Source of the DNA: a virus
Reading direction: 5' to 3' (one strand)
IMG/VR virus record: IMGVR_UViG_3300010371_000039
Location: 1-63,300 of that record
DNA: 63,300 nt
A program made the translations under genes and the position numbers. A model generated the notes under the pieces. It worked only from the letters and a program-made list of their open reading frames with translations, was not told the origin of the DNA and did no database searches. This document shows, one piece after another, positions 1,455 to 2,171 of this stretch (positions are counted from its first letter, which is position 1; each line of letters opens with the position of its first letter).

Positions 1455-2171
1455 CTACTCCGGCACTCGTACGGCCTCGTCACCGAGTCGGCCGCTGGGC
1501 GACGTCACGCTTTCTCCGTCGCTGCTCATCTCGGGCGACGACGCGGCGCGATGCGAGCCAGAGGAGCCACTGCCCTCCGGTGACCTGCGCCGGCGTGACA
1601 CCGAATGCATCAGCAGCCGATTCCGAGCTTCCGACGAGAGCAGCGCTAAAGGGACGGAGCTGCCGCCCTCCTCAAGACGGCGGAGCCACGCATCCATCGT
1701 CGACTCGTCCATCTCCGAGAGGAGCGGCCCGCTCTCCGATTGCCACAGGCAATAGGCCTCGAAGAGCGCAGACCACTCGTCGCTCGTGACGACCTTCTTG
1801 GCGTATGCCGGGTTGGGGAAAAACGGCAGCCGCACGTCCCGCGGGTCTCGCGCCGCGCGGCAGACGCACTCGACCACGAGCTCGTTGCGGTAGATCTCCT
1901 CGTAACCTGCGCTTCCGCGCTTGGCCGGTTCGACGACCTGCACGTCAGGCTTGCGGCCCTTGGCCAGCAACTCCTGGGCGTAGAGCTCCGCCGAGGCTCG
2001 CGCCGCCTGCAGCTCACCCTCGGTGAGCACCCAGATCTTCATCTGGATGTCGACCATCTCGCCCGTCTTTGGGTCCTTGCGCGGATAGCCGAAGTCCGTC
2101 GTGGGCCTTGGCATCTCGGCGAGACGCCGAAAAAGCTCTCCGGCTTCGACGTTGGTAGGGGGCTGATTCAC
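1455..2171 (-). CDS. Tail assembly chaperone, short (zero-frame) product
   Basis: A 238-residue protein between the tail tube and tape measure genes, the position of lambda G/GT-type tail assembly chaperones. These bind the tape measure and guide tube polymerisation. The N-terminal ~170 residues look like a folded helical domain, while the last ~50 residues are Ser/Arg-rich and low in complexity. That is expected if most of the tail end of this frame is read only as an overlap. Its TAG stop lies two bases from the tape measure start. A slippery heptamer at 1647-1653 lets part of the ribosomes shift to the -1 frame (separate entry). No similarity beyond position and architecture is claimed. 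Confidence 0.75.
   Translation of the reverse strand: MNQPPTNVEAGELFRRLAEMPRPTTDFGYPRKDPKTGEMVDIQMKIWVLTEGELQAARASAELYAQELLAKGRKPDVQVVEPAKRGSAGYEEIYRNELVVECVCRAARDPRDVRLPFFPNPAYAKKVVTSDEWSALFEAYCLWQSESGPLLSEMDESTMDAWLRRLEEGGSSVPLALLSSEARNRLLMHSVSRRRRSPEGSGSSGSHRAASSPEMSSDGESVTSPSGRLGDEAVRVPE
1480..2171 (-). CDS. Tail assembly chaperone, -1 frameshift fusion product (GT-like)
   Basis: Same start as the short form. At 1653-1647 the leftward strand reads C CCT TTA in the zero frame, an exact X XXY YYZ slippery heptamer. After a -1 slip the frame stays open for about 55 codons to a TGA at 1482-1480. The new C-terminus is protein-like, with the pattern FGVTPAQVTGGQWLLWLASR followed by a basic helix, unlike the Ser-rich zero-frame tail. 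The predicted fusion is 230 residues. Programmed -1 frameshifting between tail chaperone genes just upstream of the tape measure is well known in long-tailed phages. Shift efficiency cannot be read from the sequence. Confidence 0.72.
1647..1653 (-). promoter_or_regulatory. Slippery heptamer CCCTTTA for -1 ribosomal frameshift
   Basis: On the coding (minus) strand the heptamer is CCCTTTA with codon phase C CCT TTA. The tRNAs can re-pair on CCC and TTT. The downstream -1 frame is open and coding-like, and the gene context is right. No clear downstream stimulatory structure was worked out. Confidence 0.7.

Follow-up and report, generated by a model that had tools for sequence, protein, structure and literature searches.

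The window analyzed here is a stretch of 63,300 nucleotides (nt) from a virus (IMG/VR record IMGVR_UViG_3300010371_000039, positions 1 to 63,300), a 63.3-kb record with 68% GC. On its minus strand, at positions 2171-1455, lies an open reading frame (ORF) with a GTG start and a product of 238 amino acids, a putative gpG-like tail assembly chaperone gene with a homologous ORF at the equivalent place in 26 distinct relatives. From comparison of these sequences we are highly confident that the ORF encodes a tail assembly chaperone of a contractile-tailed phage and that it uses programmed -1 ribosomal frameshifting. Three features of the site point to such a shift, namely a slippery heptamer conserved in phase, conserved coding in the -1 frame and a probable stimulatory element. 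Frameshifted tail chaperones are a classic case of recoding, and the finding gives an unannotated chaperone gene of a phage group a specific, testable function.

The slippery heptamer and its conservation

Codons 173-175 of the gene read GTC CCT TTA, which places C_CCT_TTA at 1653-1647 in the X_XXY_YYZ phase, precisely where and as the original prediction had it. Relatives were collected by several routes. Protein searches yielded, among viral contigs and phage records, L001 (37%), MW202476, which is L003 (28%), and L007/L008 (31%), a DNA pattern scan added L013-L017, a profile scan with the upstream protein added 15 more distinct genes, and a scan with the sheath protein, blind to the chaperone gene, added L047, L050 and L051. 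The 26 relatives are those left after removal of near-duplicates; they are mostly 25-50% identical and make up 27 genes when the window is counted. A pattern match in L011 was rejected as chance. L048 and L049 gave no match for the chaperone gene, both contigs stopping shortly past the sheath match, and no relatives were found in two genome-contig scans or among plasmids. INPHARED contained one relative, MW202476. This was the sole relative found in GenBank, and its annotation covers just the zero frame of the gene, listed as a hypothetical protein (UOF77310.1), in line with the earlier expectation that automatic annotation would miss the fused product. The GenBank title of the record (MW202476.1) says Siphoviridae, yet a Mu-like tail sheath is annotated in it.

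Every one of the 26 relatives carried a heptamer at the equivalent protein position and always in the X_XXY_YYZ phase, the tally with the window included being 24 CCCTTTA, 2 CCCTTTC and 1 TTTCCCT. Twenty-one of them had been found without the heptamer, by similarity to the upstream protein or to the sheath, and it was present in all 21. Relatives that had lost the heptamer and kept the zero-frame tail were looked for as well; there were none among the 26, all of which kept both the heptamer and a homologous -1 extension. Upstream of the site, across the genes of the family, TTA accounts for 3 of 394 Leu codons (0.8%) and CCT for 14% of Pro codons. At the site itself TTA served for Leu in all 24 genes that have this residue, CCT was used in all 26 with CCCTTT, and every gene with Pro-Leu there used CCT TTA. 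The codon preceding CCT encodes many different residues, yet it ended in C in all 26 CCCTTT genes. Judged from these codons, the bias (CCT, TTA and the preceding final C) is not explained by the zero-frame protein. A rough count with proxy ORFs gave a chance expectation of about 0.03 in-phase CCCTTTA for the whole window. In Escherichia coli, heptamers of the X_XX.Z_ZZ.N type with UUN in the A site are prone to shift (PMC4066793).

About 12 nt upstream of the heptamer, at 1673-1666 on the minus strand, lies a Shine-Dalgarno-like (SD-like) sequence, GAGGAGGG, a candidate stimulator by its anti-SD duplex energy. The family-mean duplex was -11.2 kcal/mol, versus -9.5 +/- 0.4 with synonymous recoding; other windows of the family genes gave -2 to -5.6 kcal/mol. 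Part of the signal is owed to conserved EEGG residues. The stimulatory element of the site would appear to be this enriched SD-like sequence, without a conserved downstream structure. The one relative whose heptamer differs is L050 (8202-8208), with TTTCCCT at the corresponding position; its best SD-like match lay at a greater distance upstream than those of the other relatives.

Coding in the -1 frame

Read in the -1 frame from CCC TTT, the window gives PFSAALVGSSESAADAFGVTPAQVTGGQWLLWLASRRVVARDEQRRRKRDVAQRPTR, with 55 open codons past PF, the number originally predicted, and a stop at 1482-1480. The extension occupies 1653-1480 on the minus strand (57 codons counted from CCC TTT) and would form a gpT-like domain; the predicted frameshift junction region is LEEGGSSVPLSAALVGSSESAADAFGVTPAQVTGGQWLLWLASR (or ...VPFSAAL...). 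A homologous extension was present in all relatives, and the extensions aligned over most of their length. The consensus of the larger clade is approximately PFxxxxLASIGxxxxxVGGxxLFAxxxPGxPxxELAxYFxVxPxxLLxGHxLLWRAxRR, while the clade of the window is without a 22-residue insert and keeps FGVxPxxLxDGHxLxWxAARR. With tblastn the extension matched the -1 frame of MW202476 at 57% over 68 amino acids (E 3e-18). AlphaFold2 was run on the body and on the -1 domain as separate chains, and the L016 extension alone gave a predicted local distance difference test score of 95.8 and a predicted template modelling score of 0.79, with a helix, two strands and two more helices.

Conservation in the overlap was measured as mean pairwise BLOSUM62 over 58 codons in 19 larger-clade genes. 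The -1 frame scored 2.13 versus 1.51 for the zero frame. After synonymous recoding of the zero frame the -1 score was 0.13 +/- 0.06, with stops in 13 of the 19 sequences on average, and after synonymous recoding of the -1 frame the zero-frame score was 0.37 +/- 0.06. Since these recoding nulls treat each sequence independently and so strip shared ancestry, a better control is the block just upstream of the heptamer in the same genes, where the -1 frame scored 0.07-0.25. The +1 frame in the overlap scored 0.82, with 37 stops, which shows approximately what share of the similarity would be due to general nucleotide constraint. Split by zero-frame codon position, divergence was 0.47/0.45/0.62 upstream of the heptamer versus 0.35/0.46/0.46 in the overlap, a pattern that shows dual coding, as expected with both frames constrained. 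Within the overlap the zero-frame signal tends to prevail in the first 28 codons and the -1 signal in the last 14. For the clade of the window the data were few, leaning to the -1 frame, which fits the earlier remark, confirmed here, that the zero frame turns Ser/Arg-rich after the heptamer. With the heptamer and the homologous extension in all 26 relatives, and with -1 conservation above the recoded nulls, the original reading of the site as a programmed -1 frameshift is supported.

Alternative explanations

At 68% GC long ORFs often arise by chance, and the heptamer and the open -1 frame could be accidents in a GC-rich gene translated in the zero frame only. However, the heptamer is conserved despite its very rare Leu codon, and the -1 protein is conserved far above the recoded nulls and accompanied by the codon-position signature; the comparative data already contradict an explanation by chance, which we consider highly improbable. 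The -1 ORF could also be a separate overlapping gene with an internal start, for which GAGGAGGG would serve as ribosome-binding site. The SD-like sequence is a good one, and about half of the relatives have a -1-frame GTG, TTG or ATG 30-39 nt before the heptamer, but these codons sit upstream of the SD-like element and not after it, and conservation of the heptamer would not follow from an internal start. The -1 frame of the window is closed by a stop at 1674-1672, 21 nt ahead of the heptamer, and from this stop through 60 nt past the heptamer it contains no ATG, GTG or TTG; the same holds over the equivalent stretch in L003, L012, L025, L026, L032, L033 and L043. Because the -1 frame of the window has no start codon there, a shift is needed, at the heptamer or within 18 nt before it. 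Slippage of the RNA polymerase instead of the ribosome would also yield a mixed product, but at the site there are only two runs of three, and the heptamer keeps one phase to the zero frame, a condition of slippage by tRNAs. Both transcriptional slippage and internal initiation were rejected after consideration, and to either we give very little probability.

The identity of the protein is a separate matter. It is unlikely, in our estimate, that the frameshift is real and the protein is some other tail-assembly factor than a gpG/gpGT-type chaperone, a possibility in whose favour stand the missing sequence or solved-structure match to known chaperones and a -1 domain without fold match. Exact synteny and the frameshift architecture argue against it, as do several of the named BFVD neighbours of the body, which are tail assembly chaperones, including N15 GT, at weak E-values. 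In the AlphaFold2 model of the L016 zero-frame protein, the model that was compared with BFVD, the body was confident (block means about 91-97 over residues 21-140), followed by a moderately confident helical tail to about residue 222. We infer the chaperone identity from synteny (sheath-tube-gene-tape measure) and weak fold similarity, which is what stands of the label given originally; support from a sequence family was not found. By analogy the protein may work like the gpG/gpGT chaperone, and homology is not claimed.

A number of results weigh against a frameshifted tail chaperone. Pfam, PHROG and PDB sequence searches with both products returned nothing linking them to known tail chaperones, the similarity in fold between the body and annotated tail chaperones in BFVD was weak (E 0.06-1.5), and Foldseek with the -1 domain model gave no fold match. 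No conserved downstream stem-loop or pseudoknot was found in the family (mean z -0.5 to -0.8). In E. coli UUY is better than UUA in A-site slippage (PMC4066793), so that the efficiency at this heptamer may be low. In addition, the -1 extension of L001 is only 21-26% identical to the others compared, and the zero-frame tail is poorly conserved in the clade of the window.

Nesting and gene neighbourhood

Past the heptamer the zero frame continues as a C-terminal tail (1646-1455, minus strand) that is open in all relatives, runs 25 nt beyond the -1 stop and ends beside the start of the tape measure gene. Frameshift products of tail chaperone genes are usually the longer ones, with the slip near the 3' end, a feature that is not strictly defining; here the -1 stop preceded the zero-frame stop in 24 of the 26 determinable genes (L031 is cut by the contig end). 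The distance from heptamer to zero-frame stop was 139-370 nt, whilst in two collections of tail chaperone frameshifts the slip averages 26 and 36 nt from that stop (PMC10885494). L013 (11070-11893) and L043 (2992-3761) have the ordinary arrangement, with the -1 frame running past the zero-frame stop, so nesting was either acquired or lost in the course of the family's history. Past the -1 stop the zero-frame codon signature reappears in the larger clade. The original prediction spoke of a site joining the tail chaperones; the frameshift itself is supported, and instead of two genes being joined one gene obtains two alternative C-termini, the -1 ending being nested. A published predictor (PMC10885494) seeks an overlap of consecutive annotated genes in which the slip is a short way, 26-36 nt on average, from the zero-frame stop. 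Because the -1 domain here is inside the zero-frame gene, such predictors, like ordinary gene callers, would probably report a single gene.

The gene lies, as originally stated, just upstream of the tape measure gene, of which the 5' part is present (1452-1, minus strand, cut by the window edge; PHROG 794, E 1.9e-5) and whose TTG start comes 2 nt after the zero-frame stop. On the other side are a probable tail tube gene (2629-2249) and the tail sheath gene (4262-2673; PHROG 165, E 8.8e-54), both on the minus strand. The place between tube and tape measure was found in the window and in the relatives, the tube being assigned by position only; the order sheath, small gene, chaperone gene recurs in L001 and MW202476. 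In most relatives a long downstream ORF starts within about 11 nt of the zero-frame stop, a spacing from which the long tail would couple translation to the tape measure gene. The tail module of the window also contains a peptide deformylase ORF (5558-4806, minus strand; PF01327, E 4e-26; GLASTQ, EACLS, HEVDH), which is an unusual location for it. It overlaps an ORF with a terminal IPT/TIG domain (6951-5359, minus strand; PF01833, E 3e-16), probably a virion surface or tail protein, and for one of these genes the actual start is ambiguous.

Proposed mechanism

Most ribosomes would read CCT TTA in frame and make the 238-residue product, while in a minority the P- and A-site tRNAs would slip from C_CCU_UUA to CCC_UUU, the pause or tension probably coming from GAGGAGGG pairing with 16S rRNA about 12 nt upstream. 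The shifted product would have about 230 residues, the first 175 in common and then the 55-residue alternative C-terminal domain. If lambda gpG/gpGT is taken as the model, the shared body may coat the tape measure, with tail tube subunits being recruited by the rarer -1 domain, and the long zero-frame tail would keep non-shifting ribosomes coupled to the tape-measure start. The low shift ratio, the SD-like stimulation, the chaperone role and the coupling by the tail are parts of a proposal. A modest shift rate is expected, since UUA is less shift-prone than UUY in E. coli, and it would fit the low gpGT:gpG of lambda, 1:30 (PMC5009743). We consider about as likely as not the wider claim that this is an undescribed tail chaperone family, in which frameshifting would pick between two selected C-terminal domains over the same 45-70 codons. 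The rarer -1 domain would be fully nested, and the zero-frame tail would be retained both because it has a function of its own and because it couples translation to the tape-measure start. The overlap offers a clean natural case of two selected proteins on the same codons.

Comparison with known systems

A frameshifted tail chaperone is a known trick; its nested form is unusual. The tail assembly chaperone frameshift of lambda G/GT and its relatives was reportedly described by Xu, Hendrix and Duda in 2004. The likeness to lambda lies in a single gene placed directly ahead of the tape measure gene, in a -1 slip on X_XXY_YYZ, and in a common N-terminal body with an alternative C-terminal domain. 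The heptamer of lambda G/GT is G_GGA_AAG, whereas here it is C_CCU_UUA, and no sequence similarity was detectable between the systems. The lambda slip is also near the 3' end, unlike the one here, which comes 139-370 nt before the zero-frame stop and whose -1 product is usually not longer. The lambda frameshift and its relatives are reviewed in PMC5009743.

Contractile-tailed phages of the P2 type (E/E+E') and the Mu type likewise have a chaperone frameshift between tube and tape measure; unlike these systems, the present one has no family match. In E. coli dnaX (tau/gamma) the -1 frame ends almost at once, adding no conserved domain. Like the present gene, dnaX has an SD-like stimulator upstream of a -1 heptamer and a shifted product shorter than the zero-frame one (PMC3711429); unlike dnaX, the present gene is without a conserved downstream hairpin and encodes an unrelated protein.
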